This document shows positions 7,934 to 51,935 of a stretch of DNA of 61,037 bases, one piece after another. This DNA comes from a virus: the IMG/VR virus record IMGVR_UViG_3300020156_000441, positions 1 to 61,037 of that record; one strand, given 5' to 3'. The position numbers and the translations under genes were made by a program. The notes beneath the pieces were generated by a model. It was not told the origin of the DNA, made no database searches, and saw only the letters and a program-made list of their open reading frames with translations. Each line of letters opens with the position of its first letter. Position 1 is the stretch's first letter.

Positions 7934-8611
7934 ATGTCCACCACCGTGGCCAACGCCTTCGTCAAACAGTTCGAGCGCGAGGTGCACGAGGCCTTCCAGC
8001 GCATGGGTTCCAAGCTGCGCAACACGGTCCGTGCCAAGAACAACGTCCAGGGCGCCTCCACCGTCTTCCAGAAGGTCGGCAAGGGCACCGCCTCCACCAA
8101 GGCGCGGCACGGCCAGGTGCCGGTGATGAACGTCGAGCACGAGCCGGTGGAGTGCCTGCTGGCCGACTATTACGCCGGCGACTGGGTCGACAAGCTGGAC
8201 GAGCTGAAGACCAACATCGACGAGCGGCAGGTGATCGCCAACGCCGGCGCCTACGCGCTGGGCCGCAAGACGGACGAGCTGATCATCCTGGAACTCGACA
8301 AGTCCGCCAACCACGCCGGGGCCGCCACCGACGGCCTGACCAAGAGCAAGGTCCTGGAGGCGTTCGAGAAGATGGGCAACGCCGACGTGCCCGACGACGG
8401 CCAGCGCTACGCCGTGGTCGGCTGGAAACAGTGGAGCCAGCTGCTGGGCATCGACGAGTTCGCCAACTCCGACTACGTCGGCGCGGACGAGCTGCCCTGG
8501 CGCGGCACCCAGGCCAAGCGCTGGCTGGGCACGCTGTGGGTCCCGCATTCCGGCCTGACGCTGAAGGACGGCGCGCGCCTGTGCCACTGGAAGGCATCGG
8601 CATTGAAATAA
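7934..8611 (+). CDS. Outer phage major capsid protein, 5' part (interrupted)
   Basis: ATG at 7934 follows AAGGAG. The first 219 residues are capsid sequence (GQVPVMNVEHEPVECLLADY, DWVDKLDELKTNIDERQVIA, RYAVVGWKQWSQLL, GTQAKRWLGTLWVPHSGL), of the type found in BPP-1-like and related podophages. After ARLCHW at the repeat GCCACTGG the frame runs into the inner prophage and adds only KASALK before a stop. The missing 52 residues, starting YHKTAVGHASGADVKTD, are at 51777-51935. The truncated 225-residue protein would lack its last strand region and is unlikely to assemble properly (inference). Confidence 0.88.
   Translation: MSTTVANAFVKQFEREVHEAFQRMGSKLRNTVRAKNNVQGASTVFQKVGKGTASTKARHGQVPVMNVEHEPVECLLADYYAGDWVDKLDELKTNIDERQVIANAGAYALGRKTDELIILELDKSANHAGAATDGLTKSKVLEAFEKMGNADVPDDGQRYAVVGWKQWSQLLGIDEFANSDYVGADELPWRGTQAKRWLGTLWVPHSGLTLKDGARLCHWKASALK
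8583..8590. repeat. Left attachment core (attL) GCCACTGG
   Basis: The 8-bp sequence GCCACTGG is repeated at 51769-51776. It encodes part of CHW in the capsid. The bases on either side differ between the two copies, so the shared core is exactly 8 bp. Confidence 0.8.
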
Positions 8612-8625
8612 AAGGCGATTTCAGC

Positions 8626-8645
8626 CGTTTTGCAGCGTTTTGCAG
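8626..8645. repeat. Tandem 10-bp repeat near left end (arm-type site)
   Basis: CGTTTTGCAG occurs twice in perfect tandem, starting 36 bp inside the left core. An inverted, slightly diverged pair stands 39 bp inside the right core (51710-51730). The symmetric placement suggests integrase or accessory-protein binding sites. Confidence 0.55.
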
Positions 8646-8791
8646 AAGCGCCATTTGGGACGTCTGGGCGAGCTGCAATATGGCTCAGGTGCGTGCGCAC
8701 ATATCATCGTATGTTAAATGGTCTTTAGGACTGATTAACCGAGAAGGGGGTATTGAATGTCCCCGCATGCCATCCATCGTGCGGAGCCATT

Positions 8792-9865
8792 ATGACAGTC
8801 ATCGAAGCCGACGAAGCCGACGAAGCAGATGCGATCACTATTGATCGAATGATCTTCCACATCGTTGGAGCTGACCTCGCTGATCCTGACCTACTTGAAG
8901 AAATTGTGGATATCACACCTTATGCCGACTTTTTTATTGAGCGGCTAAAGTCGGCATTCCGTGGGTCTGCTTATCGCTTTAAGCACGCCTCGACTTTGCG
9001 CGACCGCGTGAGGGAAGCGTTGGATGACCCTGCCAAGTTCGTCTCCACTTCCCACACCGTGGCGCACCGCTTTCAGGAACTCTATTTGATTGATCGGCGC
9101 CTTTCCCCCGGTGCTGTTATGTTCTTCCTGTTCCGGCGGGGAGAAGAGCGACTGGCTGCGGTCATGAAGTTCGATGACACCCGCGTCATCGCCTATCGCA
9201 CCGAACTCCGTGCTGGAAGGAAGCACCCGATCCTTCAGGATCTGATGCACACCTTTGTCCAGGAGCGCACCGCCATGCAGAAGTCGGCGGTCATCGCCAT
9301 AGACGAGGATGGCGGGCGGTTGATCTGCACTGACCGGAATGGGCAGCACGGAGACCTGACGGACCGCTTCCGAGATTTTTTGGATGCGCGGCGCGAAATG
9401 TCGCATGCAGACATGACGAAGCGCCTTTTCAATGCCATCATGGCGACAGGAAAGGCATGCGCGGACGTACTGCCCAGGGAGGTGCGCAATCAACTTCGTG
9501 GCCGTGCTCGCCAAGCGTTGGACCAGATGCAGGGGTATGATCCCGAGCGTCGGGGCGAATTGGTAAATGCGGTGTTCGGCCCTCTTGACGAAGGGTCGAA
9601 AGTTCACGAAAAGTTCTCGTCGGAGCTTAAAAAGGCAAAGATCCGGGATGAGCCGATCCACTTCGACACGGCCCAGCTTCCGGCTGCCACGCGGCGCATC
9701 AAGGAGACCACCGAGGGCGTTCTGGTGGTCTACAAGGTCGAAGACGTGCAGGCTGGTACCATCCAATTCGCCGATGCTGCCGGCGGTCGGAAACGGATCA
9801 TTATCGAAACGGACGGCTATTTGATCGACGATGAGTTGGACGACAAGACTCGCATCCGCCGCTAG
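8792..9865 (+). CDS. NA37/YejK-like nucleoid-associated protein
   Basis: ATG at 8792 has GGAG 5 bp upstream; a TTG at 8753 would add a poor N-terminus. The 357-residue product matches the 37-kDa nucleoid-associated family in its layout: an opening ITIDRMIFHIV segment, SPGAVMFFLFRRGEERLAAV, AVMKFDDTRVIAYRTE, then HPILQDLMHTFVQERTAMQK and AVIAIDEDGGRLICTDRNG. Family members bind DNA. Here it is a cargo gene at the left end of the inner prophage, between the attachment site and the integrase, and overlaps the next gene by 35 bp, so the two are probably one operon. In this context a DNA-sensing role in defence is plausible but unproven. Confidence 0.75.
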   Translation: MTVIEADEADEADAITIDRMIFHIVGADLADPDLLEEIVDITPYADFFIERLKSAFRGSAYRFKHASTLRDRVREALDDPAKFVSTSHTVAHRFQELYLIDRRLSPGAVMFFLFRRGEERLAAVMKFDDTRVIAYRTELRAGRKHPILQDLMHTFVQERTAMQKSAVIAIDEDGGRLICTDRNGQHGDLTDRFRDFLDARREMSHADMTKRLFNAIMATGKACADVLPREVRNQLRGRARQALDQMQGYDPERRGELVNAVFGPLDEGSKVHEKFSSELKKAKIRDEPIHFDTAQLPAATRRIKETTEGVLVVYKVEDVQAGTIQFADAAGGRKRIIIETDGYLIDDELDDKTRIRR

Positions 9866-11198
9866 GCGATTGGCCGCAGAAGGGGGCGCCTTCAACGAGA
9901 CCGCCGACGCGCTCGTTGCCAGCGGTCGCCTTGCCGAGGTCGAGCAGTTGATGGAATGGCATGCCTTGGCGGCCAGTGCCGCCGAGCATGACATGCTGTT
10001 GACGGTACGCGACGGGATTGGCGAAGCGCTCGATGCAGGCGCATCCTCGGATGAGATCACGCTTGGTCAGGAGGTGCGCGTTCGCGTATCGAAGGGGATA
10101 GGCCCCCTCGTCCGGTTCTTCACGTTCGAAGGGCTCTGTAATGGACTTACTTCTCCAGAGATTGTCCGTCGTGCTCGTTTGATCCTAGTTGCCGAGGATT
10201 TTGCGCCCTTCCGCACGCTTTCCTGCGAGTTTCGCCCTTGGGATGTCGAGGCGGACGTACTTCCTCCGCCAGATGACCCGTCCAAGGTGGAAGTCGATCC
10301 GAGAAAACTCGTCCGGGATTTGACGGGCCACTTGCTTCCCGCGTCAGTTGATTTCTGGCTGCTGGCCGGCACTCCGGAAGAGCCATCGCGTGTGCACGAC
10401 GCCTGGGTGCACGCGTCAGCGCGAGCTCTGCTCACCCTGCCTGCGGCCGAGCTTTGGCCCGACGGGCGTGACTGCAAGGTGATGTTAGCCGGGCCGCGCA
10501 AACGCACACTTCGTATGAATGTTGATGCGTTTGATCCGCGGGGCGCCCATGGTCAGCTAACGGACGCAGTCCGTTGGGTCTGCGACGTGCCGCGGGAAGC
10601 GGAAGTGCGGCACGCGCTACTGGTAAAGCGGTTGGCGACCGAATGGCCGTCCGATGATCCGGCGTGGGAAGAGGGGCTACCCCGCGTTCTAGGTGTTGCG
10701 CTGGAAGGTGCAAAAGCCGACTACAAGGCTCATCTTCACGAGAAGACGGCGGAAACCCTCAAGGCTCTTGGGGATCTGCGAAAGGCGCTGAACGAGGAAA
10801 CGTCGAAAGTCGTTGAGCGGACGCAAGGGCTGACAGCCGCGCTTTACCGCGACTTGGCGCTTGCTGTTGGTGCGTTGTCGGTCCGTATGCTGGCGTTATC
10901 CGGTGATGGTAAGGCATTGCCCGGTACGCGTTTGGTGGTTTGGGCAATGGCGATCTGGATGATGGCCAGTCTGTGGTTGAGCTTCAATACGAACCGACGC
11001 TTCCTGCGGCTTCAGTCGCGCATGCGCGCTTCATGGCATCGCCGTATCCATGCTGTTCTGTCGAGTCGCGATTTCAATGCGCTCGCGCGGCGTCCATTGA
11101 AAGAGGCCACGAAAGCATATCGTATAACGGCCCAATGGGTAGGGCTGATCTATGTGCTTATCGCTTTCGCGCTCTTTGTGTCGGGATTCATTCTGTAA
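9831..11198 (+). CDS. Coiled-coil protein with C-terminal membrane anchor
   Basis: ATG at 9831 lies inside the end of the NA37-like gene. The 455-residue product has a soluble N-terminal region of about 300 residues with no domain I recognise, a predicted coiled coil (about 300-345, ETLKALGDLRKALNEETSKV), and two membrane segments (about 365-385 and 433-453), the last ending at the C-terminus. The topology, a sensor-like partner gene followed by a membrane protein, resembles two-gene abortive-infection modules. It is the last gene before the convergent integrase. Function is unknown. Confidence 0.7.
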   Translation: MSWTTRLASAARRLAAEGGAFNETADALVASGRLAEVEQLMEWHALAASAAEHDMLLTVRDGIGEALDAGASSDEITLGQEVRVRVSKGIGPLVRFFTFEGLCNGLTSPEIVRRARLILVAEDFAPFRTLSCEFRPWDVEADVLPPPDDPSKVEVDPRKLVRDLTGHLLPASVDFWLLAGTPEEPSRVHDAWVHASARALLTLPAAELWPDGRDCKVMLAGPRKRTLRMNVDAFDPRGAHGQLTDAVRWVCDVPREAEVRHALLVKRLATEWPSDDPAWEEGLPRVLGVALEGAKADYKAHLHEKTAETLKALGDLRKALNEETSKVVERTQGLTAALYRDLALAVGALSVRMLALSGDGKALPGTRLVVWAMAIWMMASLWLSFNTNRRFLRLQSRMRASWHRRIHAVLSSRDFNALARRPLKEATKAYRITAQWVGLIYVLIAFALFVSGFIL

Positions 11199-11211: not shown

Positions 11212-12360
11212 TCATCGTCCGAGCGCCACCACATTGTTTAGGGTCGGCTCGACCATGGCCGATGCCAGCTTGGTATACGCCGCCATCGCCAGCTTCTTCG
11301 TGCGTGCCTGATAGTCGCGCAGGCTGGTCGATGACTTGTTGGCGTGGCCGGAAATGGAACTGACCTCGGCGTCGGTGCAGCCGGCCTCGTACAGACGGGT
11401 GATCAGCGTACCGCGCAGGTCGTGCCAGTGCAGGTCCACGTCCTCACCCAACACGGCGTCGCGCAGGCTGCGCCACGCGTAGTCCACGTTGCCCGGCTCC
11501 AATGGCCGGTAGCCGCGTTCACCATCCCACGGCAGCAGGCGACCCGCGCAGTCGGGCAGGGCGAGGAGTTCGTCCATCAGCTCCTTGAGTGGCGGCAGCA
11601 GGAAGACCGGCAGCCACACCTGGGCGCCGGTGGACTTCCTGGTCTTCGACGGAATCACGTGCAGCCAACCGTCGCGGTACTGGTCGCGCCGGAGGTCGCA
11701 CATGTCGCCACGCCGCAGGCCGGTGAGCAGGGAGAAGCGCATGGCACGCTGCATGTGCGGCCCCGCGGCAGCCAGAAGCGCGGCTTCCTGTTCGGGCAGC
11801 ATGATGATGTCCTTGCGGGTGCCGTGGCCGGTAAGGCGCTTGATGCGGGCGGCGTGGTTCACGTCCACCATGCCGCGGTCATACGCGAACTGGAGCAGCA
11901 ACGACAGCAGGCCCATCATCTTGTCGGCCTTGGCCGGCGTGTCGGCCAGCTCGTCGCGCCAACCGTAGAAATCCTCGCGCACGCGGCGCCGGCCGAGGTC
12001 GGCGAAGGTCTGGAAGCCGAACTTGTCGATCACCTCTCCGATCATGCGGTCACGGTCGTGCCGTGTGCGCGGGACAAGGGTCTTGTATTCCGGGCTCTCC
12101 TGATAGGCTTTAGCGATGACCTTCCAGGCGCCTTCCGGCTTCTTCGCTTTGGATCGGCGCGGCCGGCCGGCGCGGCGGGCGCGCCGCAGGTTGGCATCGA
12201 ACTCGGCCGAACCCGGTTCACCTTCGATCTTCTGCCCGCTGATCCGGTCGTAGTGGTAGACGCGGACGGTGCCGTCAGCGAGCGTGCGCTTGACGGTGTT
12301 GATGCCCTTTGGCTTTGCGCTTGGCTTCGTGCTCGGTCCGCCGCCGCTCATAGTCGTCAT
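11212..12360 (-). CDS. int: Tyrosine-recombinase integrase
   Basis: This 382-residue protein has an N-terminal basic arm-binding region, a SAM-like core-binding domain (about 90-170) and a catalytic domain. The first arginine is in LLTGLRRGDMCDLR, the HxxR motif in LHWHDLRGTLITRLYEAG, the second histidine in SSISGHANKSST and the tyrosine in SLRDYQARTKK. It should integrate and excise the inner prophage. It is transcribed leftward and converges on the cargo pair. Its start overlaps the excisionase-like gene, typical of int/xis pairs. Confidence 0.92.
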   Translation of the reverse strand: MTTMSGGGPSTKPSAKPKGINTVKRTLADGTVRVYHYDRISGQKIEGEPGSAEFDANLRRARRAGRPRRSKAKKPEGAWKVIAKAYQESPEYKTLVPRTRHDRDRMIGEVIDKFGFQTFADLGRRRVREDFYGWRDELADTPAKADKMMGLLSLLLQFAYDRGMVDVNHAARIKRLTGHGTRKDIIMLPEQEAALLAAAGPHMQRAMRFSLLTGLRRGDMCDLRRDQYRDGWLHVIPSKTRKSTGAQVWLPVFLLPPLKELMDELLALPDCAGRLLPWDGERGYRPLEPGNVDYAWRSLRDAVLGEDVDLHWHDLRGTLITRLYEAGCTDAEVSSISGHANKSSTSLRDYQARTKKLAMAAYTKLASAMVEPTLNNVVALGR

Positions 12361-12601
12361 CCTCCGCCGTCTGAATCAGCGACGCGAACGGGCCGTTGTC
12401 AACCGCCCGGTCGAGGGCGACGCGGTCCCACGTGATGCGTCCCTCCTTTTTGCCGCGGCGAACCCCCGGCGGCCAGACCCCGGCGGCAACCTCGTCGTCG
12501 AAAGTGGATGCCGAAACGCCGAGATAGGCGGCGGCCTGCTCGCGGCTGAGGAAGCGCGGCCAAAATGGTAAACCGGCGAGGTCGGCGAGGCTGGCAGCCA
12601 T
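12275..12601 (-). CDS. Excisionase-like DNA-binding protein
   Basis: The 108-residue product contains a helix-turn-helix of the MerR/AlpA type, LSREQAAAYLGVSASTFDDE, followed by a wing-like VWPPGVRRGKKEGRITWDR. Such proteins are common next to phage integrases and control excision. ATG at 12601 lies just after the upstream stop and has GGAG upstream; ATG 12625 would overlap it. The 3' end overlaps the integrase start by 86 bp. The charged Lys/Arg-rich tail may come from reading across the integrase start. Confidence 0.75.
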   Translation of the reverse strand: MAASLADLAGLPFWPRFLSREQAAAYLGVSASTFDDEVAAGVWPPGVRRGKKEGRITWDRVALDRAVDNGPFASLIQTAEDDDYERRRTEHEAKRKAKGHQHRQAHAR

Positions 12602-12606
12602 GTCCG

Positions 12607-13071
12607 TCAGTCTCCGTCGCTCCATGCGGTCATGACCGCATCGGAAAGAAGCGCCAGCACGGCAGCGGCAGCGGCGAGGTTCATGCCGGCGGCGGTCCTG
12701 GGCGAACCGAGAACGGCCAGTGTGGCGGCGTCAATGGTGCGGGCTTCCCATACCATCGACCGACCCAGCTCCGGCACCGGGCGTACCGCCAGCTCGACGC
12801 CGGCCGGCAGGGCGGCGCGCAGTGCGCGCAGGTCGCCATCGTGGCGGGTGTAGGCCGGCGCGGTGGCGTACAGCTTGCGCGCGATGGGGGCCGGCCAGTT
12901 CGGCAGCAGCGGCGCAGCACGAAGGAGCAGCCGGTGCACGCGTTGGTCGAGGTCCGGGCCGCCGGTGCTCCGCTGGGCGGCTTCGTGGGCGGCGTTGCCG
13001 AGTTCTAGCACAAGGCCCCACGCGGATCCGGTGGCGACCTGTCGCGTGGTAGTGTCTTGCAGGGCGAGCAT
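12607..13071 (-). CDS. Hypothetical protein of the leftward early operon
   Basis: ATG at 13071 has AGGAG about 11 bp upstream. The 154-residue product is Ala/Leu-rich and acidic-basic mixed, with GSAWGLVLELGNAAHEAAQR near the start and an alanine-rich helix near the end (AAGMNLAAAAAVLALLSDAV) that might be a single membrane-associated helix. I do not recognise a family. It lies between the zinc-finger gene and the excisionase-like gene, all leftward. Confidence 0.55.
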   Translation of the reverse strand: MLALQDTTTRQVATGSAWGLVLELGNAAHEAAQRSTGGPDLDQRVHRLLLRAAPLLPNWPAPIARKLYATAPAYTRHDGDLRALRAALPAGVELAVRPVPELGRSMVWEARTIDAATLAVLGSPRTAAGMNLAAAAAVLALLSDAVMTAWSDGD

Positions 13072-14488: not shown

Positions 14489-15157
14489 TCAGCGGCGGAA
14501 AAAGTGCCGGTACGACCCGATCACGAGCGAGGTGATGATGACGCTGTCAACGTCGTCTTCCTGCCCGTCGTGCGGGCGGATTGGCTGCTGAAAGGCCGGG
14601 TGATCCGACTCCGGCATCAGCCACGGTTCACCTTCGTGCAAGACGAATTTCTTGACCGTCGCCTCGATAAAGCCGTCGTGGCGGTGCCGCTCGACGACGA
14701 CATAGTCGCCGGGCTGCGGGTCGGTTCCGAGTTCCTCGAACCGCACGCATTCGACGACGCTGCCTTCTGGAAAAACTCTGTTCATGGAAGGCCCGCGCAC
14801 TTCCAAGCCGTAGCGCTTAACGTTTGGGAACTGAGGATGCGGCGGAAGGGAAACCGAATACCACTCGTCGCTCACCCACTCCACGGCTTCCACCCAATGA
14901 CCGGCCTGCACAGCGCCCATCACGAATACGGGCCGCAACGTTAACTCTTCGTTGACCCGCTCACCATAGGCGAACTGCTGCGGTGTTTCGCCGGCCAGCT
15001 CGGCAAGGGCGACGATCTGGTCGAACTCCGGTTCCTGTGTGCCCTTTTCCCAGCGGCTCACTGTCGATTGAGACACGCCGAGCAGCTCCGCGAACTCGTG
15101 TTGGTTGAGTCCGCGCGACTTGCGCAATCGCTTGATCCGGGCTGGGAGCTGGCTCAT
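14489..15157 (-). CDS. CI-type repressor of the inner prophage (HTH + S24)
   Basis: ATG at 15157 gives a 222-residue protein starting MSQLPARIKRLRKSRGLNQH. The XRE-type helix-turn-helix is in residues 8-62 (EFAELLGVSQSTVSRWEKG). The C-terminal S24 peptidase domain has the serine in LEVRGPSMNRVFPEGSVV and the lysine in FIEATVKKFVLHEG. It should maintain lysogeny of the inner phage and be inactivated by SOS-driven autocleavage. It is divergent from a Cro-like gene and surrounded by four ATGCG-N4-CGCAT operators. Confidence 0.9.
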   Translation of the reverse strand: MSQLPARIKRLRKSRGLNQHEFAELLGVSQSTVSRWEKGTQEPEFDQIVALAELAGETPQQFAYGERVNEELTLRPVFVMGAVQAGHWVEAVEWVSDEWYSVSLPPHPQFPNVKRYGLEVRGPSMNRVFPEGSVVECVRFEELGTDPQPGDYVVVERHRHDGFIEATVKKFVLHEGEPWLMPESDHPAFQQPIRPHDGQEDDVDSVIITSLVIGSYRHFFRR

Positions 15158-15193
15158 GGCAATCGGATTATGCGTGGTCGGATGGCAAGGCAA

Positions 15194-18522: not shown

Positions 18523-18978
18523 ATGGGCAACCGTTTGACCAAGGGCCTGTCCGTACGCGCGCCGTGGTGGTGGTTCATCCTGCACGGCGGCAAGGACGTG
18601 GAGAACCGCACGCGGCCCACCAGCTTCCGCGGCACCGTCTGCCTGCACGCCTCCGCGTGGTGGCGCACCTGGGAGGCGCTGGAAACCATGCACGACTTCG
18701 GCAAGCTGGCGGAGCGTGCCGGCGCGCCGATGGTGACGATGCCGGTGGTCCGCCCCTACGGCGGCTGCATCGTCGGCACCGTCGATATCATCGACTGCGT
18801 GTCGGAGAGCGCCAGCCCGTGGTTCTTCGGGCCGTACGGGTACGTGCTCTCCAACCCGGTGTCCTTCGCCGAACCGATTCCCTGCAAGGGCATGCTCGGC
18901 TTCTTCACCGTGCCGCCCGACGTACAGGTTCGCGCCGCCGGGGCTGAAATCGGCATGGCCCCGGAGGTGCGGTCATGA
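18523..18978 (+). CDS. ASCH-domain protein
   Basis: ATG at 18523 has GAGG upstream. The 151-residue product has the ASCH features: an early GLSVRAPWWWFILHGGKDVE followed by NRTRPTSFRGTVCLHAS, and a later IVGTVDIIDCV strand. ASCH domains have a PUA-like beta-barrel and bind RNA or modified nucleotides; many are in phages beside replication genes. Its stop overlaps the next ATG. Confidence 0.82.
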   Translation: MGNRLTKGLSVRAPWWWFILHGGKDVENRTRPTSFRGTVCLHASAWWRTWEALETMHDFGKLAERAGAPMVTMPVVRPYGGCIVGTVDIIDCVSESASPWFFGPYGYVLSNPVSFAEPIPCKGMLGFFTVPPDVQVRAAGAEIGMAPEVRS

Positions 18979-20693
18979 CCGAAGAAATCCCCGGCCCCGA
19001 GCTGAAGGAGGCTGCGCTCACCTACGCCAAGGGCGGGTGGTACGTCTTCCCCTGCGCGGCGCGGGGGAAGATGCCGTACCGCAAGGACGGCTTCTTTGAG
19101 CACGGCTGCAAGGACGCGTCCAAGTCGCCGTGGTCGGTGAAGGCGTTCTGGGGCGAGTGGCCGCAGGCCAACATCGGCTTGGCCTGCGGCGAAGAGACGG
19201 GCGTGTGGGTGGTCGATGCCGACGTGAAGGCGCCGACCGACGATCAGCCGGGCTACGACGGCTTCGATACCATGCGCCAGCTGCAGGAACTGTTCGGCGA
19301 GGCGTTGCCGCCGACGCTGGGGCAAAAGACGCCGAGCGGCGGCTATCACTGGCTGTTCCGCTGGCCGGGGAAGAAGGTGCCGAACTCGGCCAAGAAGCGG
19401 CTCGGCCCCGGCCTCGACGTGCGCGGCGACGGTGGGTACATCCTCGTCGCCCCCAGCGTCCACCCGAACGGCGGGCGGTACGCCTGGGACGGTGACCCGG
19501 CGTCCACCCCCATCGCCCGCGCGCCTGAATGGCTGTTGCGGCTGCTGTTCGTCGAGCCCTCGGACCAAGAGGGGCTCGACTGGCTGCAACACGCGGTCGA
19601 GGGCAAGGAGCTTCCCGACTGGCTGGCGAAGCGCATCGGCATCGCCCTGCCGAAGGCGGCCGGCAAGCGTGCCGCCGCGCCGAAGGTCGAGCGGGTGTCG
19701 CCCTACGTTCGGAAAGCGCTGGAAGACGAATGCCTCAAGGTGCGGGCCGCACCGCCTGGCTGTCGGAATCAGACGCTGAACGAGGCGGCGTTTTCCATGG
19801 GCCGCTTTGTCGGGGCGGGGGCGCTGGAACGCGCCGTCGCCGAACTGCACCTGCGCGCGGCCATGCTGTCGTGGGACGGGGTGGAACCGGCCAAGCGGGC
19901 GCGGGACGAGAAGACGCTGCAAAGCGCCCTGGACTCCGGGGCGTTGCAGCCGCGCGAGGTGCCGGAGCAGCAGGAACGCCGCTCCCTGGCCCGGCCGCGC
20001 ACCATCCGGCCGGGCGGCCCGCCCCCGGCGCGCGTGGACCTGTCGGCGCTGATCGGGCAGGCGCGGGCCATCTGGCAGCCCCGGCATCCGCTGGACGGCA
20101 CGCCGGCTGCGGCCTACCTGACGGCGCAGGGCATCGCCCCGGCGCAGAGTGGGCCATGGCTGGGCTTTGTGCCGGCGCTCGACCGCCTTTGGTCGGTGGA
20201 TGGGGATGAGCCGGTGTGCGTCGGGACCGCCCCGGCCCTGATTGCCGGTCTGGCCCGCTGGCCGGACCGCAGCGACCGGCCGGAGGTGGTTGCGGTCCTG
20301 GCCTACTGGCTGCGCGAAGATGGCGCGTTGCAGCTCTTCCGCGACCCGGCGACCGGACGGGAGTTGCCGGGGCGGGCGCTGATCGGCGCGTGGCACGGCG
20401 CGGCGGTGCGCCTGGGGCGCGGCGCGCCCGGTGCCTCCACCATGTTGGTCGCCACCGGCCTCGTCGAGGGGCTGCGCGCGCGCCTCGCCACGCCCGAGCT
20501 GCCCGTGTGGGTAGCCGGCACCATTGCCGCCATGGAACGCCTGTCGCTGCCGGAAGCCATCCGGGAAGTGATCCTGCTGGGAGCGGGGCGGGCCGATCCG
20601 GCGGCCATCGCCCGCATCGGCGCGGCGCTGGGGCACGGGCGCGGACGCATCGTCAAGCGCGTCATCCGCGCCAGGGACAAGGCGGTGGCGTGA
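18975..20693 (+). CDS. Prim-Pol / Toprim DNA primase fusion
   Basis: A 572-residue protein. Residues 10-195 form a bifunctional primase-polymerase (Prim-Pol) domain with NIGLACGEETGVWVVDADVK carrying the metal-binding acidic pair, TPSGGYHWLFRWPGK with the conserved His, and GLDVRGDGGYILVAPSVH. Residues about 340-560 form a Toprim-like region: TPAAAYLTAQGIAP, then TMLVATGLVEGL with the Toprim glutamate, and VILLGAGRADPAA. It would prime phage DNA synthesis together with the D5-type helicase at 21933. A large middle region may hold a primase C-terminal linker. Confidence 0.88.
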   Translation: MTEEIPGPELKEAALTYAKGGWYVFPCAARGKMPYRKDGFFEHGCKDASKSPWSVKAFWGEWPQANIGLACGEETGVWVVDADVKAPTDDQPGYDGFDTMRQLQELFGEALPPTLGQKTPSGGYHWLFRWPGKKVPNSAKKRLGPGLDVRGDGGYILVAPSVHPNGGRYAWDGDPASTPIARAPEWLLRLLFVEPSDQEGLDWLQHAVEGKELPDWLAKRIGIALPKAAGKRAAAPKVERVSPYVRKALEDECLKVRAAPPGCRNQTLNEAAFSMGRFVGAGALERAVAELHLRAAMLSWDGVEPAKRARDEKTLQSALDSGALQPREVPEQQERRSLARPRTIRPGGPPPARVDLSALIGQARAIWQPRHPLDGTPAAAYLTAQGIAPAQSGPWLGFVPALDRLWSVDGDEPVCVGTAPALIAGLARWPDRSDRPEVVAVLAYWLREDGALQLFRDPATGRELPGRALIGAWHGAAVRLGRGAPGASTMLVATGLVEGLRARLATPELPVWVAGTIAAMERLSLPEAIREVILLGAGRADPAAIARIGAALGHGRGRIVKRVIRARDKAVA

Positions 20694-21700: not shown

Positions 21701-21943
21701 TTGACCGTCCCAGACGAGAGCAGGGGCGCGAAGCGTCGCCGTCGCGGCGCCTCGATCCTCCCCGCACCCCTCCCTTTCATGATGGCCCTTCGGGCAACCG
21801 GCCGGTGGCCGCACTGGCGGGGCGGCGGCGGGGTGGAGAGGTGCGGCAGGGCGGGCGCGTGGGCGCGTTGCGTCCTGCGGACCGCCTGCACAAAGCGACT
21901 AGTCGCTCTTCGCGACGCCGTGGGGGTGAGCCATGCCCGATGA
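21701..21943 (+). CDS. Doubtful small ORF before the helicase gene
   Basis: A TTG start at 21701 with GGGAG about 10 bp upstream would give an 80-residue basic product (RGAKRRRRGASILPAPLPFM) overlapping the helicase start. The composition is not convincing. The interval 21649-21932 otherwise holds only a short 19-codon frame (21645-21704) and the palindrome at 21894-21907. Confidence 0.25.
   Translation: MTVPDESRGAKRRRRGASILPAPLPFMMALRATGRWPHWRGGGGVERCGRAGAWARCVLRTACTKRLVALRDAVGVSHAR
21894..21907. repeat. Palindrome AGCGACTAGTCGCT, copy 2
   Basis: Second perfect copy of the 14-bp palindrome seen at 13451-13464, again preceded by CCTGCACA. It is 26 bp upstream of the helicase start, a position suited to regulation. 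Confidence 0.6.
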
Positions 21944-23609
21944 TCGCCTGCCGCCGGATGGCTTCGACCTCGACGCGTTGCGCGACGGCATCCACAACGC
22001 CGAGCCGCTGGCCCCGGCCGGCGGTGGTCCGCTGCGGCCACCGGAGCCGGGCGAGGGGGAGCCGCCCAACGAAAAGTGGCTGGCGAAGCTGGAACGCAAC
22101 GACACCGGCAACGCGGCGCGGCTGGTGGCCCGGTACGGGACCGATCTCGTGCACGTGGACGGGGTGGGCTGGCATTGCTGGGCCGAGACCGAACAGAGCG
22201 GCGGGCGCTTCGCGTTCGAGCTGGGCGCGACCGAAGCGGTGCGCCGGGCGCAGTGGACGCAGGCGGCCATGTACAACGAGGTCAAGGTGCTGCGGGACGA
22301 GGGGCCGCCGCCGCCGTCGCCCGAGGAAGAGAACGAGCAGATCGACGAAGTGAAGGCCATGCTGCGCAAGGAGCGGCTGAAGGCGTGGACGCAGTCCATC
22401 GACGCCGCCCAGCGGCACGCCCTGCAATCGGGCAACGCCGGCAGGATCAACGCCATGCTCGAAATGGCGATCCCCGACCTTGCCAGACCCATGCGGGCGA
22501 TGGACGCCAACCCGTGGCTGGTCACGGTCGAGAACGGCACCTTGGAGCTGATGCCGCCGGAGCCCACGTCCGATCAGGTGCAGGACGGCTGTTCCGATCC
22601 ACCGCCCTGGAAGCCGGTCAAGCGGGCGTCGCGGCGCGGCGACCTGATCACCCGCATGATGGGGGCCGCCTACCGCCCGGACGCCGCGTGCCCGAAGTTC
22701 GAGGCGTTCCTCAAGCGCATCCTGCCCAGCGAGGCGGTCAGGCGATACCTTCAGCGCCTGTTCGGCTACAAGCTGACGGGCCTGTCGGACGAGCACGTGT
22801 TCGTGATCTTCTGGGGCACCGGGCGCAACGGCAAGTCCACGCTCGTGGATATCCTGCGTCGGGTGTACGGCGACTATGCCGCGACGGTGCAGGTCAACCT
22901 GTTCCTCGACGATGGCCGGGTGAAGGCGGACGGGCCGCGCCCGTCGCTGGCGAAGCTGCCGGGCGTGCGCGTCGTCTTCATGTCGGAGCCGAAGAAGGGC
23001 GCGCGCCTGGACGAGAGCCTCGTCAAGGAGACGACGGGCGGCGAACCCCTGGAAACCCGCAAACTTCAGCGCGACCCGTTCGAGTTCCGGCCGCAGTTCA
23101 TCCCGGTCATGTCCACCAACTTCAAGCCCCAGATCCTGGGCCTCGATCCCGGCATCTGGGGGCGGCTCAATCTGGTGCCCTTCACCGAGTTCATTCCCCC
23201 GGAAGAGCGGGACAAGCGCCTCGCGGAGAAGTTGTGGCGGGACGAGCGTGACGGGATCCTGGGGTGGTTGCTCGACGGGTTGGCGGCATACCACGAGGAA
23301 GGGTTGAACCCGCCGGCCGAGATCCTCGCCGCTGTCGAGGAATACCGCGCGGAGAGCGACCCGCTGGGCGATTTCCTCGACATGGAGACGGCGGCCAAGG
23401 CGGGGGCGCGGTGCGCGTCGGCCGACCTGTACAAGCGCTATGAGGACTGGTGCGAGCGGAACGGGCAGGAGCCCATGAAGCAGAACGGTTTCTCGCGCAA
23501 GTTGCGGGAGCGCGGGTTCGTCAGCACCAAGTCCGGCACCATGCATTGGGTCGGGCTGGAACTGCTGCCGAACAACGAGCCGCCGTCCATGGGCGGCGGG
23601 ATGGGCTGA
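21933..23609 (+). CDS. D5-type primase-helicase (SF3)
   Basis: A 558-residue phage/plasmid primase of the P4/D5 type. A D5_N-like region (about 170-275) is followed by an SF3 ATPase with Walker A in VFVIFWGTGRNGKSTLVDIL (about 290), a Walker-B-like strand RVVFMSEPKKG, sensor-type PVMSTNFKPQILGLDPGIWG and arginine finger RLNLVPF. The C-terminal winged helix has YKRYEDWCERNGQEP and FSRKLRERGFVSTKSGTMHW. It should unwind the origin, which probably lies just downstream at 23610-23905. The N-terminal 170 residues are not assigned. Confidence 0.9.
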   Translation: MPDDRLPPDGFDLDALRDGIHNAEPLAPAGGGPLRPPEPGEGEPPNEKWLAKLERNDTGNAARLVARYGTDLVHVDGVGWHCWAETEQSGGRFAFELGATEAVRRAQWTQAAMYNEVKVLRDEGPPPPSPEEENEQIDEVKAMLRKERLKAWTQSIDAAQRHALQSGNAGRINAMLEMAIPDLARPMRAMDANPWLVTVENGTLELMPPEPTSDQVQDGCSDPPPWKPVKRASRRGDLITRMMGAAYRPDAACPKFEAFLKRILPSEAVRRYLQRLFGYKLTGLSDEHVFVIFWGTGRNGKSTLVDILRRVYGDYAATVQVNLFLDDGRVKADGPRPSLAKLPGVRVVFMSEPKKGARLDESLVKETTGGEPLETRKLQRDPFEFRPQFIPVMSTNFKPQILGLDPGIWGRLNLVPFTEFIPPEERDKRLAEKLWRDERDGILGWLLDGLAAYHEEGLNPPAEILAAVEEYRAESDPLGDFLDMETAAKAGARCASADLYKRYEDWCERNGQEPMKQNGFSRKLRERGFVSTKSGTMHWVGLELLPNNEPPSMGGGMG

Positions 23610-25167: not shown

Positions 25168-25722
25168 TTGATCTTGGCTCGCCCGACGAAGCCCCAGGCG
25201 CTGAAGGACTTGGCCGGCAATCCTGGCCGTCGCAAGCGGTCTGCCCCATCCCAGGGGAGTGGGGTGCAGGCTGCGGCGGACGCGGTCCATGCTGGCGAGT
25301 TCGCGCCGCCGAAGGATCTGACCGCGGCGGAGCGGAAGGTGTGGCTTGATGAGCTGCACCGCTGGCAGGCGGCCGGGCTGGCGAAGCCGTCCGACCTGAC
25401 CGCGTTCCGTTCCTGGGTTGAGGCCCGCGCGTTGTTCCTGCGCTGCAAGCGTGTGGTGGACAAGGACGGCCCCACCTACATCACGGAATCGAAGCACGGC
25501 TCGATGATCCGCGAGCGGCCGGAAGTGAAGATCATGAACGGGCTGGCCCGCCTCATGACCAAGCTGTCCGATCAGCTCGCCTCGAACACCAAACAGCGCA
25601 TCGCCACCACGTCGCAGCTCGCGACGGCGAAGCAATACGACCTCTTCCCGTCCGCCGCTCCGGACGGCGCGCAGCAGGACCAGAAGAAGAACTCCGATGA
25701 CCCGGTTGGCTGGCTCCAGTAA
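25168..25722 (+). CDS. terS: Terminase small subunit (P27 family)
   Basis: A TTG start at 25168 (or 25174) is used; the product opens ARPTKPQALKDLAGNPGRRK, the signature of P27-type small terminases. A helical DNA-binding region follows (LTAAERKVWLDELHRWQAAG) and the C-terminus includes RPEVKIMNGLARLMTKLSDQ. It recognises phage DNA for packaging with the large subunit, whose start it overlaps by 26 bp. Confidence 0.88.
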   Translation: MILARPTKPQALKDLAGNPGRRKRSAPSQGSGVQAAADAVHAGEFAPPKDLTAAERKVWLDELHRWQAAGLAKPSDLTAFRSWVEARALFLRCKRVVDKDGPTYITESKHGSMIRERPEVKIMNGLARLMTKLSDQLASNTKQRIATTSQLATAKQYDLFPSAAPDGAQQDQKKNSDDPVGWLQ

Positions 25723-27415
25723 CGCCGCTGCCCAGGCCCCGGCCCCCGCGATCCTGCGCGGGCTGGCAGTGTCCAAGGAGGAGGTACTGCGCGTCGCCGA
25801 AGAGCACGCGCGCGCCGTCATGGATCGGCTGTGGCGGCGGTACGCCAACGACAACCGGCTGATCTTCGATGAACAGACGGCGGAGAAGGCGTGCGCCTTC
25901 TTCCCCCGTTTCCTTCGGCACTCGAAGGGCCGCCTTGCTGGCAAGCCCTTCCACCTCAAGCCGTGGCAGCGCGAACTCGTGCGCATCGTCTTCGGCTTCA
26001 AGTGGGCGGAGAACGGCCTGCGCGTGGTGCGGCGCGTTCTGCTGTTCATCGCCCGCAAGAACGGCAAGTCCACCTTCGCCGCCGGGCTGGCGCTGCTGAT
26101 GCTGCTGTCCGAACCGGCGGGGGAAATCTACTCCGCCGCCGCGGACAAGGCGCAGGCGGCCATCGTCTTCAGCGAAGCCGTGTCCATGGTGGCCGCCTCA
26201 CCCGAGTTGAAGCGCTCGCTGGAGAGCTTCAAGACGGCCATTGTCTGCGCCAAGCTGTCGGCGGCCTACAAGGTGCTGTCCGCCGATGCCCACACCAAGC
26301 ACGGCTTGAACCCCTCCGGCTTCCTGTTCGATGAGTTGCACACTCAGCCGAACCGCGATCTGGTGGACGTTCTCCACACCGCAGTGGGAGCCCGGCCGCA
26401 GCCGCTGGAGTGGTACATGACCACGGCGGGCGCGGGCCGGCGCGGCATCTGCTGGGAGATGTTCGAGTTCGCCGTGCGCGTGCTGGAAGGCGTCATCGAT
26501 GACCTGTCCTTCCTGCCCGTCCTGTTCATGGCGGACGACGGGGACGATTGGACGGACCCGCGCACCTGGGCGAAGGCCAATCCCAGCGTCGGCGACGCCG
26601 TGTCGCTGGACTACCTGGCCGGCGAGTGCGCCCATGCCCAGCGCGTGCCCGGCTACGAGAACACCTTCAAGCGCCTGCACCTCAACCTCTGGACCGAACA
26701 GGCTACGCGGTGGCTGCCCATGGCGGACTGGCGGGCCTGCGGCGGCGACGTGGCGTGGCAGGATCTGCCGGAGCGCCTGTTGGGCCGCCCGTGCTTCGGC
26801 GGCCTGGACCTGTCCAGCACCACGGACATCACGGCCCACGTCAAGGTGTTCCCGCCGGAGGATGAGGGGGAACCCTGGTGGCTCGTGCCGCGCTTCTTCG
26901 TGCCCATGGCGAACATCGACCTGCGCGCCCGGCGCGACCGCGTGCCCTACGACGAATGGGCGCGCCAGGGCGCGTTGGTCGCCACGCCCGGCAACGTGGT
27001 GGATCAGCAGGCGGTGGAGGACGCGGTGCGGCAGGACGCCGAACACTACCGGCTGGTGGAAGAGGCGTACGACCGCTGGAACGCGTCCGGCCTTGTAACC
27101 CGCCTGAGCGCGGACGGGCTCACAATGGTGCCGTTCGGGCAGGGTTTCGCCTCCATGTCCGCGCCGGCCAAGGAGCTGGAAGCCAAGGTGATCGGGCACA
27201 CGCTGGGGCACGGCATGCACCCGGTGCTCGAATGGATGGCGGGCAACGTCGCCATCGACACGGACCCGGCCGGAAATATCAAGCCGAACAAAGCCACGTC
27301 CGGCGAACGCATTGACGGCATCGTGGCGTCCGTCATGGGCATCGGGCGGGCCATGGTGTTCGGCAACGACAACGGCACCGAAGTTCCCTCCGACTATGAG
27401 GTTGCGGTGGCATGA
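25697..27415 (+). CDS. terL: Terminase large subunit (HK97-type)
   Basis: A 572-residue protein. The ATPase has a Walker A variant ARKNGKST (about 118-125, in RVLLFIARKNGKSTFAAGLA) and Walker B in PSGFLFDELHTQPN. The nuclease half has FGGLDLSSTTDITAHVKVFP with the first catalytic Asp and a C-terminal GNIKPNKATSGERIDGIVA with the last Asp. Length and motifs fit the Terminase_1 (HK97/phiC31) group. It pumps DNA into the prohead through the portal encoded next. Confidence 0.93.
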   Translation: MTRLAGSSNAAAQAPAPAILRGLAVSKEEVLRVAEEHARAVMDRLWRRYANDNRLIFDEQTAEKACAFFPRFLRHSKGRLAGKPFHLKPWQRELVRIVFGFKWAENGLRVVRRVLLFIARKNGKSTFAAGLALLMLLSEPAGEIYSAAADKAQAAIVFSEAVSMVAASPELKRSLESFKTAIVCAKLSAAYKVLSADAHTKHGLNPSGFLFDELHTQPNRDLVDVLHTAVGARPQPLEWYMTTAGAGRRGICWEMFEFAVRVLEGVIDDLSFLPVLFMADDGDDWTDPRTWAKANPSVGDAVSLDYLAGECAHAQRVPGYENTFKRLHLNLWTEQATRWLPMADWRACGGDVAWQDLPERLLGRPCFGGLDLSSTTDITAHVKVFPPEDEGEPWWLVPRFFVPMANIDLRARRDRVPYDEWARQGALVATPGNVVDQQAVEDAVRQDAEHYRLVEEAYDRWNASGLVTRLSADGLTMVPFGQGFASMSAPAKELEAKVIGHTLGHGMHPVLEWMAGNVAIDTDPAGNIKPNKATSGERIDGIVASVMGIGRAMVFGNDNGTEVPSDYEVAVA

Positions 27416-28638
27416 GCGTCCTGAACTGGCTCACCGAACTGCTCTGGGGCGCCGGCCGCGGGGCCTCCGTCGTGCAGGTTGTCGGCACCGAGGCGGGCGA
27501 AATCGTGACCGATGCCACGGGTCTGGCCCTGCCCATCGTGCACGATTGCCTCGGTATCCGCGCGCGCACGGTAGCGACGCTGCCGTTGCAGGTGTTTCGC
27601 CGCCTGGACGACGGCGCGCGCGAACCGGCCCCGGAGCATACCCTGTCCCTGGTGCTGGGACTGCGGCCGAACGAGCACCAGACGAGCTGGGAGTTCCGGC
27701 AGCAGATGCAGCGCTGGCTCGACTGGCACCGCAACGCCTACGCCGAGATTGTGCCCGGTGTCCGTGGCGCCGTTGACCGTCTGGTGCCGCTCAACCCGAA
27801 GGTGACCTATCCCGAGCGGATCGCCGGGCGGCTCTGGTATCGCACCTGGGACAAGGACCGGGGCTCGCGCCTGCTGGCGCCCGAAGAGGTGTTCCATCTG
27901 AAGGACGCCCCGTTCGACGACGCCGGCCTTGCCGGTCTGCCGGTGCTGAAGACCCATGCCGAAACCATCGGCGCGGCCATCGCCGTGCACAACTACGGCC
28001 GGCGCTTCTTCCGCAACGACGGGCAGGCCGGCGGCATCCTGGAACATCCCGGTCAGTTCAAGGACAGCACGGCGCGCGACACGTTCATGGGAGCGTGGCG
28101 CAAGGCCCGCACCGCCGGAAAGCAGCACCGCGACGCCTTGCTTGAGTTCGGCATCAAGTACAACCGCGCCACCCTTGACAACGAAAAGGCGCAGTTCCTT
28201 GAAACGCGCAAGGAGAATGCGCTCGAACTTGCCCGCCTTTGGCACATCCCGGCCCACAAGCTCAACATGCTGGACGGGGCGACCTTCAGCAACATCGAGC
28301 ACCAATCCATCGAGTTCCTGACCGACACGGCGCTGCCGATGTTGGAAATGTGGGAACAGAAGATCAATGCGGACCTGATTGTTGATCAGGAGTATTTCGC
28401 CGAGTTCAACGTTGCCGGCCTTCTGCGCGGCGACCTGAAGAGCATGTACGAAGCCTTCAAGATGGGCCGGGAAGGCGGCTGGCTGTCCATCAACGACATT
28501 CGCCGCATGCTCAACATGAACCCGATCAAGAACGGCGACGATCACTTGCAGCCGCTGAACATGGCGCCGGCCGGCACCGTGCCGGACCGGCCGGCGGCAC
28601 GCCCGCGCCAAGCCATGGCTGGCGACCTCGGCCTCTAG
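27412..28638 (+). CDS. HK97-type portal protein
   Basis: A 408-residue portal overlapping the terminase stop by 4 bp. Typical features are HDCLGIRARTVATLPLQVFR, LGLRPNEHQTSWEFRQQMQR, NAYAEIVPGVRGAVDRLVPL and FLETRKENALELARLWHIPA. The length is normal for the HK97 family. It forms the dodecameric portal of the inner phage and is unrelated in sequence to the podovirus portal at 2485-4002. Confidence 0.93.
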   Translation: MSVLNWLTELLWGAGRGASVVQVVGTEAGEIVTDATGLALPIVHDCLGIRARTVATLPLQVFRRLDDGAREPAPEHTLSLVLGLRPNEHQTSWEFRQQMQRWLDWHRNAYAEIVPGVRGAVDRLVPLNPKVTYPERIAGRLWYRTWDKDRGSRLLAPEEVFHLKDAPFDDAGLAGLPVLKTHAETIGAAIAVHNYGRRFFRNDGQAGGILEHPGQFKDSTARDTFMGAWRKARTAGKQHRDALLEFGIKYNRATLDNEKAQFLETRKENALELARLWHIPAHKLNMLDGATFSNIEHQSIEFLTDTALPMLEMWEQKINADLIVDQEYFAEFNVAGLLRGDLKSMYEAFKMGREGGWLSINDIRRMLNMNPIKNGDDHLQPLNMAPAGTVPDRPAARPRQAMAGDLGL

Positions 28639-28654: not shown

Positions 28655-29653
28655 GTGGAAGATCAGGAGGACGCCCTGTCGAGCGAGGGCGCGAACGAGG
28701 TTGTCAGCGAAGCGGCGCTGTACGCCCACGTGGTGCGGCTGGTGTCGGAAACGGCCTGGGCGGTGCTGCCGGAGACGCTGGCGGTGATCGCCGACGTGTT
28801 GTCGCTGCGGGCCAGCGGCGGCCTGATGAGCAAGGCGGAGATCCGCGCGCGCATCGCCGCCAGCGCCCGCCAGCCCGTCCGCGTCGGGGCCGCCCGGTCC
28901 GGTTCGGTCGCAGTGATTCCCGTGCAGGGCGTCATCACCCGCCGGGCCGGCATGTTCACCGAAACGTCCGGCATGGTCTCGCTGGAAGGCTTCATGGCGA
29001 AGGTGCGCGCCGCCCACGCCGACGACGGTGTCGGTGCCGTCGTCATGGCGTTCGACAGCCCCGGCGGCGATGCGGCCGGCGTGCACGAGGCGGCGGCCGA
29101 GCTGCGCTCGATGCGCGGCACCAAGCCGCTGGTGGCGGTGGCGGACGGCATGGCCGCGAGCGGCGCCTACTGGCTGGCGTCCCAGGCGGATGAGCTGGTG
29201 GTCACGCCCTCCGGCAGCGCTGGCAGCATCGGCGTCTACACCATCCACCGCGACATGAGCGCCGCCATGGAGCGCCAGGGCGTCAAGGCCACGGTGATCC
29301 GGGCCGGCAAGTACAAGGCCGAGGGCAACCCGTTCCAGCCGTTGGGCAATGACGCCCAGGCCGCCATTCAGGAGCGCATCGACGCCACGTACGACATGTT
29401 CGTGCGCGACGTGGCTGCCGGTCGCGGCGTGACGGCGGCCAGCGTGCGCAACGGCTACGGCGAAGGCCGGGTGGTGACGGCGGCCCGCGCCAAGGAACTT
29501 GGCATGGTGGACCGGGTGGCGACGCTGGCCGAGACCATCACGCGCCTGCAAGGCCGCCGCGCCGCCCCTCCGCCGTCCACCGGCAACCGCGCGTCTGCCC
29601 CTGGCGGGCTGGAAGCGCGCCTCGCATCCCTGCGCCTCGCGGCGCTCGCCTGA
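28655..29653 (+). CDS. S49-family (SppA-like) prohead protease
   Basis: GTG start at 28655; 332 residues. The ClpP-like fold shows AVVMAFDSPGGDAAGVHEAA with the oxyanion loop, the nucleophile in DGMAASGAYWLASQADELVV (Ser near 167) and the general base in VIRAGKYKAEGNPF (Lys near 217). Such Ser-Lys proteases replace the usual prohead protease in many alphaproteobacterial siphophages and trim the capsid delta-domain. It lies between portal and capsid as expected. Confidence 0.9.
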   Translation: MEDQEDALSSEGANEVVSEAALYAHVVRLVSETAWAVLPETLAVIADVLSLRASGGLMSKAEIRARIAASARQPVRVGAARSGSVAVIPVQGVITRRAGMFTETSGMVSLEGFMAKVRAAHADDGVGAVVMAFDSPGGDAAGVHEAAAELRSMRGTKPLVAVADGMAASGAYWLASQADELVVTPSGSAGSIGVYTIHRDMSAAMERQGVKATVIRAGKYKAEGNPFQPLGNDAQAAIQERIDATYDMFVRDVAAGRGVTAASVRNGYGEGRVVTAARAKELGMVDRVATLAETITRLQGRRAAPPPSTGNRASAPGGLEARLASLRLAALA

Positions 29654-48844: not shown

Positions 48845-48984
48845 CCTTCATCGACACTTCGGAGCCCGGCCCTCTGCCGTCCGCTCCGAAGTGCTGTCCG
48901 GCAGCCCGCATCACCCATCACGCGCCTTCCATGGCCCGCCATTCCGGCGGGGCCTTCCTGCTGCCCAAAGGAGGGGCACAACTC

Positions 48985-49746
48985 ATGACCACCAGAGCCG
49001 TTACCGTCGCCTGTCTGGCCCTCGTCAAGCATTACGAGGGCTTGTACCTGAACGCCTACCTCTGCCCGGCCGGCGTGCCCACCATCGGGTGGGGCCACAC
49101 CAAAGGCGTGACCATGGGCCAGAGCATCAGCAGGGAAAAGGCCGACGTCCTGCTCGCCGCCGACATGGCCGAGGCGGCGCGGCATGTGGACCGCCTCGTC
49201 ACCGCGCCACTGATGGATCACCAGCGCGACGCGCTCGCCAGCTTCGTGTTCAACCTGGGGGCCGGGAACCTCGCGTCCTCGACCTTGCTGAAGAAGCTGA
49301 ACGCCAAGGACTATGAGGGTGCGGCGGGCGAGTTCGGCAAGTGGGTCTATGCGACCGTGGGCGGGGTCAAGACTCAGCTCGCCGGCCTCGTCGCTCGCCG
49401 CGCCGCCGAGGCCGCCATGTTCCGTGGCGCGGACTGGAAGGCGGCGGCCGAGCAGCAGCAGCGCATGCCGCAAGCGGTGGTTCCGGCGGCCCCGATGAAG
49501 CCGTTGGCGCAGTCCCGCACGATGCAGGCCGGGCAGGTCGGTCTGGGGCTGAGCGTGGTGACCGGCACACTGGCGCAGGTGTCGCCGATGCTCGAACAGG
49601 TCCAGGGGATCGGCGGCCAGATCGGGGCCATTCGCGCCGCCCTGCCGGATGGCAGTGCCGGCTATGTCATGGCGGCGCTGCTCGCCGGGGCGGTGGTGTT
49701 CATGCTTTGGCGTCGGTACGAGGATCACCGCCAGCAGCGGGCGTGA
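48985..49746 (+). CDS. GH24 lysozyme (endolysin) with C-terminal membrane segments
   Basis: ATG at 48985 with AAAGGAGG upstream. The 253-residue protein has the T4/P21-type catalytic triad spacing Glu-x8-Cys-x5-Thr in HYEGLYLNAYLCPAGVPTIG, followed by WGHTKGVTMG. It cleaves peptidoglycan at lysis. After the enzyme (about 1-150) comes a linker and two hydrophobic segments (GQVGLGLSVVTGTLAQVSPM and AGYVMAALLAGAVVFMLWRR). The C-terminal membrane anchor is unusual and may combine endolysin and holin-like functions. Confidence 0.92.
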   Translation: MTTRAVTVACLALVKHYEGLYLNAYLCPAGVPTIGWGHTKGVTMGQSISREKADVLLAADMAEAARHVDRLVTAPLMDHQRDALASFVFNLGAGNLASSTLLKKLNAKDYEGAAGEFGKWVYATVGGVKTQLAGLVARRAAEAAMFRGADWKAAAEQQQRMPQAVVPAAPMKPLAQSRTMQAGQVGLGLSVVTGTLAQVSPMLEQVQGIGGQIGAIRAALPDGSAGYVMAALLAGAVVFMLWRRYEDHRQQRA

Positions 49747-49753
49747 CGCTAGC

Positions 49754-51138: not shown

Positions 51139-51140
51139 GT

Positions 51141-51367: not shown

Positions 51368-51709
51368 CGCGGAAGTCTGTTGCTGCCGAAACACCGTCCA
51401 TCATCCGTCTCGCTTGTCGCAGACGTGGGTGAAAGGTGATCGTTGCACAAAGTTGAATTGGCGTGAGAGAAATGCGCGCGTCGGCCTCGGCCCCACCCGG
51501 GCCGTCCGGAGTACCGCATCAGCCCAATGGTGCGCCGGACGGGGGGCCGTATGCCCGCTGGGATGCGCTGGGGGTATGAGCCAGCGCAGGGCTACCAACG
51601 CCGGGGCTGACACTACAGCATTTGTGTGCGTGCGTGTGGCTATCACGGTGCGATCGGGAACGAGTGTGGAACAAAGCGGCGAGCCAAACGCCAGGAGCAG
51701 CAAGGTGTT

Positions 51710-51730
51710 CTGCAAAACGTTCTACAAAAC
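51710..51730. repeat. Inverted arm-type repeats near right end
   Basis: CTGCAAAAC at 51710-51718 and CTACAAAAC at 51722-51730 are the inverted counterparts of the tandem CGTTTTGCAG at the left end. They lie 39 bp inside the right core. Confidence 0.55.
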
Positions 51731-51768
51731 AACTTCCTAAGTAACTGGAAACACGCCTTTGGTGGGCC

Positions 51769-51776
51769 GCCACTGG
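51769..51776. repeat. Right attachment core (attR) GCCACTGG
   Basis: Second copy of the 8-bp core. The base after it (51777) begins the codon that continues the outer capsid frame. Confidence 0.8.
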
Positions 51777-51935
51777 TACCACAAGACGGCGGTCGGCCAC
51801 GCCTCGGGTGCGGATGTGAAGACCGACGTGACGTGGCATGGCGACCGCGCCTCGCACTTCGTCAACAACATGATGAGCCAGGGCGCCTGCCTCATCGACC
51901 CCACGGGCGTCGTCACGCTGCGCTGCCTCGAATAG
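51777..51935 (+). pseudogene. Outer phage major capsid protein, 3' part (separated)
   Basis: The frame reads YHKTAVGHASGADVKTDVTW, HGDRASHFVNNMMSQGACLI, DPTGVVTLRCLE and then TAG at 51933-51935. It has no ribosome binding site or start of its own. Joined at the 8-bp core to the 5' part (7934-8590) it gives one continuous 271-residue capsid protein. Capsid C-termini of this type commonly end with a GA-x-LIDPTGVV-type strand, which supports the join. Confidence 0.88.

Follow-up and report, generated by a model that had tools for sequence, protein, structure and literature searches.

Can the head gene of one phage-derived region serve as the attachment site of another phage, and what becomes of the region that is interrupted? 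This question is raised by the stretch of DNA analysed here (hereafter the window), which comprises 61,037 nucleotides, i.e., positions 1 to 61,037 of IMG/VR virus record IMGVR_UViG_3300020156_000441. A reading of the letters and open reading frames alone had proposed that the window holds a complete siphophage lodged in the capsid gene of another prophage.

Split of the outer capsid gene

The capsid gene in question encodes a joined product of 271 aa and is split at codon 219 by a siphophage of 43.2 kb located between two copies of GCCACTGG (Table 1). We found that the joined protein matches the Pfam family Phage_capsid_2 (PF19821) with 279 bits over profile positions 1-293, against 214 bits for the left half and 54 for the right, and that the right fragment, taken alone, scores as the C-terminus of this family. 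Residues 2-267 of the joined protein match the solved phage major capsid chain 9eg4. In its interrupted form the frame stops at 8611, six foreign codons (KASALK*) past GCCACTGG, and the last 52 residues of the capsid are lost on integration. The core is present in the window in four 8-bp copies against 4.5 expected, which is chance level; therefore, the case rests on the profile matches and on empty-site evidence instead. The latter is provided by locus L002, whose uninterrupted capsid is 98% identical and runs continuously across the predicted joined site TGCCACTGGTACCACAAGACGGC. Furthermore, the genome of Azospirillum oryzae A2P exhibits the same junction with a 7-bp version of the window core, both capsid halves being located on one 2.87-Mb contig. 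This identical junction makes an assembly artefact very unlikely, and we reject a chimera. No tRNA attachment site was found within the window.

The sequence-only reading had followed the capsid frame from position 7934 through GCCACTGG to 51777 to obtain 271 residues, and this course is borne out by PF19821, L002 and A2P. It had also expected related capsids to continue as YHKTAVGH after CHW; intact and rejoined relatives indeed read CHWYHKTA(V/I)GHA, and the search that it had proposed for an uninterrupted capsid gene in related genomes yielded the L002 protein. The exact restoration of the frame by precise excision, as it had foreseen, is in agreement with the intact relatives in the form of a predicted join. 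At the level of sequence, we regard the split of the capsid gene by the siphophage as confirmed.

Table 1. Features of the window, with their positions, strands and supporting profile matches.
Region	Feature	Position	Strand	Support
Outer	S24-type repressor	349..981	-	PF00717 E 7e-25; phrog_4
Outer	head-tail connector/portal	2485..4002	+	PF12236 500 bits; phrog_332
Outer	T7-type scaffold/capsid assembly protein	4280..5011	+	PF05396 E 8e-13
Outer	PAS-GGDEF-EAL protein, between scaffold and capsid	5211..7538	+	PF00990, PF00563
Outer	major capsid gene, 5' part, codons 1-219	7934..8590	+	PF19821 214 bits, profile 1-244
Junction	attL core GCCACTGG	8583..8590	+	
Inner	attP P' arm, two tandem CGTTTTGCAG, inverse of P arm	8626..8645	+	
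Inner	cargo, NA37-like protein	8753..9865	+	PF04245 E 2e-11
Inner	cargo, 455-aa protein with hydrophobic C-terminus, no family	9831..11198	+	
Inner	tyrosine integrase	11212..12360	-	PF00589 E 7e-12; 79% identical to A2P integrase
Inner	small HTH gene, AlpA-like, excisionase candidate	12275..12625	-	HTH_17 E 0.008, below Pfam cut-off
Inner	CI-type repressor, HTH and S24	14489..15193	-	PF01381, PF00717
Inner	Prim-Pol primase	18975..20693	+	PF09250 E 6e-40
Inner	D5-type primase/helicase	21933..23609	+	phrog_1156, PF08706
Inner	large terminase	25697..27415	+	PF20441, PF03354
Inner	portal	27412..28638	+	PF04860 E 3e-84; phrog_12
Inner	head maturation protease	28655..29653	+	PF01343; phrog_53
Inner	HK97-type major head protein (ORF)	29499..31073	+	PF05065 E 2.5e-37; phrog_10
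Inner	tape measure protein, 2249 aa	35660..42409	+	PF20155 E 4e-56
Inner	endolysin	48931..49746	+	PF00959, phrog_7
Inner	attP P arm, TTCTGCAAAACG and TTCTACAAAAC	51708..51730	+	
Junction	attR core GCCACTGG	51769..51776	+	
Outer	major capsid gene, 3' part, codons 220-271 and stop	51777..51935	+	PF19821 54 bits, profile 240-293
Outer	89-aa conserved protein	51980..52249	+	phrog_18004
Outer	tail (tubular A-like) protein	52610..53176	+	phrog_394 E 3e-48
Outer	main tail protein	53176..55071	+	phrog_376 E 2e-143
Outer	tail spike/fibre	56078..58111	+	phrog_1640
Outer	large terminase	58108..59613	+	phrog_38 E 6e-70
Outer	small conserved protein preceding hydrolase	60142..60489	+	phrog_29007
Outer	cell-wall hydrolase	60486..61037	+	PF07486 E 6e-18

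The inserted siphophage

Profile searches assigned to the inner element (8591-51768) a complete-looking gene set of a temperate siphophage, so that the earlier claim of a complete siphophage, inserted site-specifically in the major capsid gene, holds. The true start of its HK97-type head protein probably lies downstream of 29499. Reconstruction of attP revealed arm-type repeats on both sides; the A2P phage has like repeats, though its body differs: the integrases of the two phages are 78-79% identical, but their terminases only 28%. The A2P integrase gene is, moreover, adjoined by a counterpart of the small HTH gene with 74% identity.

Between attL and the integrase gene there is a cargo slot (8753-11198 in the window; L093 for A2P), which is occupied by unrelated genes in the two phages. 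It looks like a place for accessory or defence genes; PADLOC and NCBIfam gave no match to a known defence system for the cargo at attL.

Content and inheritance of the outer cluster

The outer genes represent a podoviral set of connector, scaffold, capsid, tail and packaging functions, in which profile searches found no integrase or replication gene. Among named phages, the outer capsid is nearest to the capsids of Pelagibacter and Vibrio phages, yet always below 60% identity.

We found the capsid in 45/45 Azospirillum species genomes and in 68 of the 82 Azospirillaceae genomes; in 40/45 Azospirillum genomes it is full-length and uninterrupted, with 81-88% identity. The connector and the terminase are likewise present in 45/45 Azospirillum genomes each, and the main tail protein in 44/45. 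The cluster occupies a fixed locus, sdhA-sdhB-cluster-thrS-infC, in those compact genomes that we inspected, the flanks being recognised by sequence; in genomes with two separate modules, thrS-infC still adjoins the capsid half. Capsid distances follow those of rpoB closely (Mantel r = 0.90, 0 of 2000 permutations, 38 genomes). The pairwise dN/dS of the capsid has a median of 0.20 and falls to a median of 0.08 in the closest intact pairs; between the window and L002, dN is 0.014 and dS 0.226. On these genomic grounds, the outer cluster can be described as a vertically inherited, kept, podovirus-derived locus under purifying selection. The family-wide fixed locus, the co-divergence with rpoB and the lack of an integrase argue against an ordinary prophage as the outer element, and it is on this point that the sequence-only reading, which had taken it for another prophage, has to be replaced.

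In the clade of A2P and genome G030, the head and capsid modules are on different contigs or separated by hundreds of kb, so that the cluster may in some cases not function as a whole. One Azospirillum clade (L133, L135 and others) has its break between the GGDEF-EAL and capsid genes, and in this broken-cluster clade the distance between the halves is ~200-300 kb or more, with 258 kb in G049.

Two genomes depart from the common organization. In G012 (L132), an internal deletion starts at codon 114 of the capsid gene and reaches into that of the terminase, and most of the tail module is lost, which means that the cluster is dispensable in this genome; a second partial terminase is encoded elsewhere in it. 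In G048 (L171, L204, L205), ~16.6 kb of extra DNA separates the capsid gene from the 89-aa gene, the latter being without a start. This extra DNA is possibly a further insertion, in an assembly that has many frameshifts.

The PAS-GGDEF-EAL gene sits at the same place in relatives; in G086, from another genus, no such gene is present between scaffold and capsid. The GGDEF motif of the encoded protein is degenerate (GSDDF) and its EAL motif looks intact. The sequence suggests that a c-di-GMP phosphodiesterase has been incorporated into a cluster of phage origin.

Recurrent insertions into head genes

The window and A2P, both with 43-kb inserts that split the capsid gene at codons 217-219, are not the only interrupted cases, and the extent of this recurrence had escaped the sequence-only reading. 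In genome G008 the capsid gene is split at codon 198 by a 39-kb insert with a 19-bp core, and in G030 at codon 248 by a 40-kb insert with an 11-bp core. The capsid gene of G086 is interrupted at the same codon as that of G030 by 11.4 kb of DNA with a 12-bp core and another integrase. IMG/VR locus L243 ends in the sequence of the G030 site, and its integrase is 58% identical to that of G030. In turn, the connector gene is split at codon 299 in G016, G021, G042 and G046 by elements of 15-17 kb with cores of 13-14 bp, which possess integrases 82-96% identical to each other and mosaic interiors; four IMG/VR contigs with this integrase and enough flank show the same connector site. In total, three att sites were found in the capsid gene and one in the connector gene, and all site-specific splits rejoin in frame to give an intact protein without stops. 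By contrast with these, the connector split of G009 (L152-L154, 46 kb) was rejected as a site-specific case, as it has no shared core and contains transposase-like ORFs.

Read from their sequence, the G008 and G030 inserts seem to be further phages, each encoding a terminase- and a portal-like protein. The connector inserts, although of satellite size, also possess genes for an HK97-type capsid, a portal and a terminase. In all site-specific cases the coding sequence of the insert is mainly oriented as the late genes of the outer cluster. The relationship between the integrases of different site groups is remote, with 38% identity between G008 and G030 and at most about a third, over partial alignments, for the others. 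Three groups of tyrosine integrases are involved, and a fourth insert is not fully typed. The interrupted species are scattered on the rpoB tree with uninterrupted sister species, which points to at least seven independent insertions: the window, A2P, G008, G030, G086, G042 and the G016/G021/G046 group. These comparisons show that several integrase lineages have taken the capsid and connector genes as attB repeatedly and independently of each other. No site-specific split was detected in the main tail gene (44 genomes) or in the outer terminase gene (45 genomes); four sites against none make a bias towards capsid and connector over tail and terminase suggestive only.

Interpretation and alternatives

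We consider it very probable that the window contains an ancient podovirus-derived host cluster in which capsid codons 217-219 form the attB of the siphophage, and that the reversible insertion of the latter would silence the cluster. A particle-based function such as gene transfer is probably what the cluster is kept for. In the proposed mechanism, the siphophage tyrosine integrase, probably together with the small HTH protein as excisionase, would recombine GCCACTGG cores flanked by arm sites. Integration, by removing the capsid C-terminus, should leave the cluster unable to build heads, and precise excision would give back the full capsid gene. We infer that the cluster makes particles, that the insert silences it and that excision restores it. 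The insertions may, however, all be recent, so that undecayed interrupted copies do not prove continued function.

As for the choice of site, the likeliest explanation would be a one-copy sequence that every host of the family possesses, in a gene whose loss is tolerated. The capsid att sites rank only at the 55th to 77th percentile of conservation within the gene, outside its best conserved parts, which weakens an account based purely on the most conserved sequence. The silencing of a rival lysis and packaging system is a plausible added benefit for the inserts.

It seems unlikely that the inner phage practises active lysogeny, i.e., that it excises without lysis under defined conditions and so switches the outer element on. 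The predicted exact in-frame restoration would suit such a switch, as would the integrase with its adjoining small HTH gene, the intact arm sites and the interrupted genes without decay. Yet, restoration is automatic in any conservative intragenic site-specific integration and does not speak for a switch. Phages residing at one and the same site differ in body, which implies quick turnover of the elements rather than co-adaptation, and sister species are without inserts.

We hold it quite improbable that the inserts are parasites embedded in a helper, exploiting the outer heads, late transcription and lysis in the manner of helper-embedded PICIs (HE-PICIs). The connector inserts have the size of satellites and an integrase at their upstream edge, most of their genes are co-oriented with the late genes, and the known cases have their sites in capsid and other late genes (PMC10111431). 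However, the window insert encodes a complete phage gene set, the A2P, G008 and G030 inserts possess their own terminase and portal-type genes, and an outer cluster without replication genes is not a replicating helper.

A simple prophage inside an ordinary, active outer prophage is very improbable. The structural, packaging, lysis and repressor genes of the outer element agree with it, but not its single orthologous copy at one locus in all 45 species, diverging with rpoB, nor the lack of integrase and replication genes and the two separate chromosomal modules of one clade. That the outer cluster is decaying junk which merely tolerates insertions is hardly tenable, since the large deletion in G012 and the ~16.6-kb gap after the capsid gene in G048 are outweighed by a dN/dS of about 0.2 (median 0.08 in the closest intact pairs) and by full-length genes, with capsid and connector kept in 45/45 genomes.

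Should the podovirus-derived host cluster make particles, plant-associated bacteria would have in it a candidate for a podoviral gene transfer agent (GTA) that is family-wide and whose locus is named. Unrelated integrase lineages would then be seen to converge on the head genes of a domesticated phage, and the helper-embedded idea would extend to whole phages and a host-owned target. The farthest-reaching version, an Azospirillaceae podoviral GTA under reversible control by phages and satellites lodged in its head genes, in which one virus decides on the gene exchange of a population, is rather unlikely. Sister species in which the gene is by nature split or intact lend themselves to a direct test.

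The literature searched, mostly outside subscription journals, yielded no paper on the outer cluster or on phages integrating into a GTA. Particles of Azospirillum lipoferum and B510 were reportedly described by Boyer in 2008 as siphovirus-like, and a link to the podoviral cluster is therefore not assumed. A later account presents these particles as carrying ~10 kb of host DNA and only guesses at the source of their genes (PMC3899980, citing Boyer 2008).

Comparison with known systems

Helper-embedded PICIs are the nearest precedent. These are tyrosine-integrase elements located inside phage late genes, most frequently the capsid gene; they are small satellites in active lambda-like helper prophages and belong to one integrase clade (PMC10111431). 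Elements lodged in phage late genes, above all the capsid gene, are thus already known. The present inserts are similar in that they occupy late genes with precise att junctions, have a predicted restoring excision, a DNA-binding gene adjacent to int and arm motifs in attP. They differ in that whole phages occur beside satellite-sized elements, that several integrase lineages are involved and that the target is domesticated and vertically inherited; it is the whole-phage inserts, the diversity of integrase lineages and the family-wide range of a domesticated target inherited with the host that are new here. An HE-PICI is a satellite without a full virion set, whereas the window insert encodes its own terminase, portal, protease, capsid, tape measure and endolysin. 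Its int and small HTH gene lie on the minus strand and the late gene on the plus strand, unlike HE-PICIs, in which int, alpA and primase are oriented as the late gene.

Similar to active lysogeny, as described for comK in Listeria and hlb in Staphylococcus (PMC6872733, PMC6597384), a chromosomal gene is split by a phage and can be restored by precise excision, the exact restoration being here a predicted join that agrees with intact relatives. In contrast to these systems, the gene that is split here encodes a virion protein and belongs to a phage-derived cluster. Prophages integrated into prophages are also found in Escherichia coli, where the attB sequences have their origin in the host chromosome and are found close to effector loci (PMC8112680). 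In both situations a temperate phage has its site inside another phage-derived region, but in the window attB is the coding sequence of a head gene.

The outer cluster itself resembles a gene transfer agent, and its genomic features agree with the definition given in PMC9662315. Its particle proteins (connector, scaffold, capsid, tail, spike and terminase) are derived from a tailed phage. It is mostly vertically inherited and co-diversifies with its hosts, as the Mantel correlation, the fixed locus and its presence in every Azospirillum species indicate, and it is fully endogenised, with no integrase or replication gene and, in one clade, with two modules, in keeping with GTAs that are often spread over several loci. 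By the same definition, GTAs also package random host DNA, are unable to package their own locus completely and deliver DNA to cells. The Faecalibacterium FpGTA has been called the first podovirus-like GTA (PMC12946183), and the outer cluster is likewise of podoviral type.
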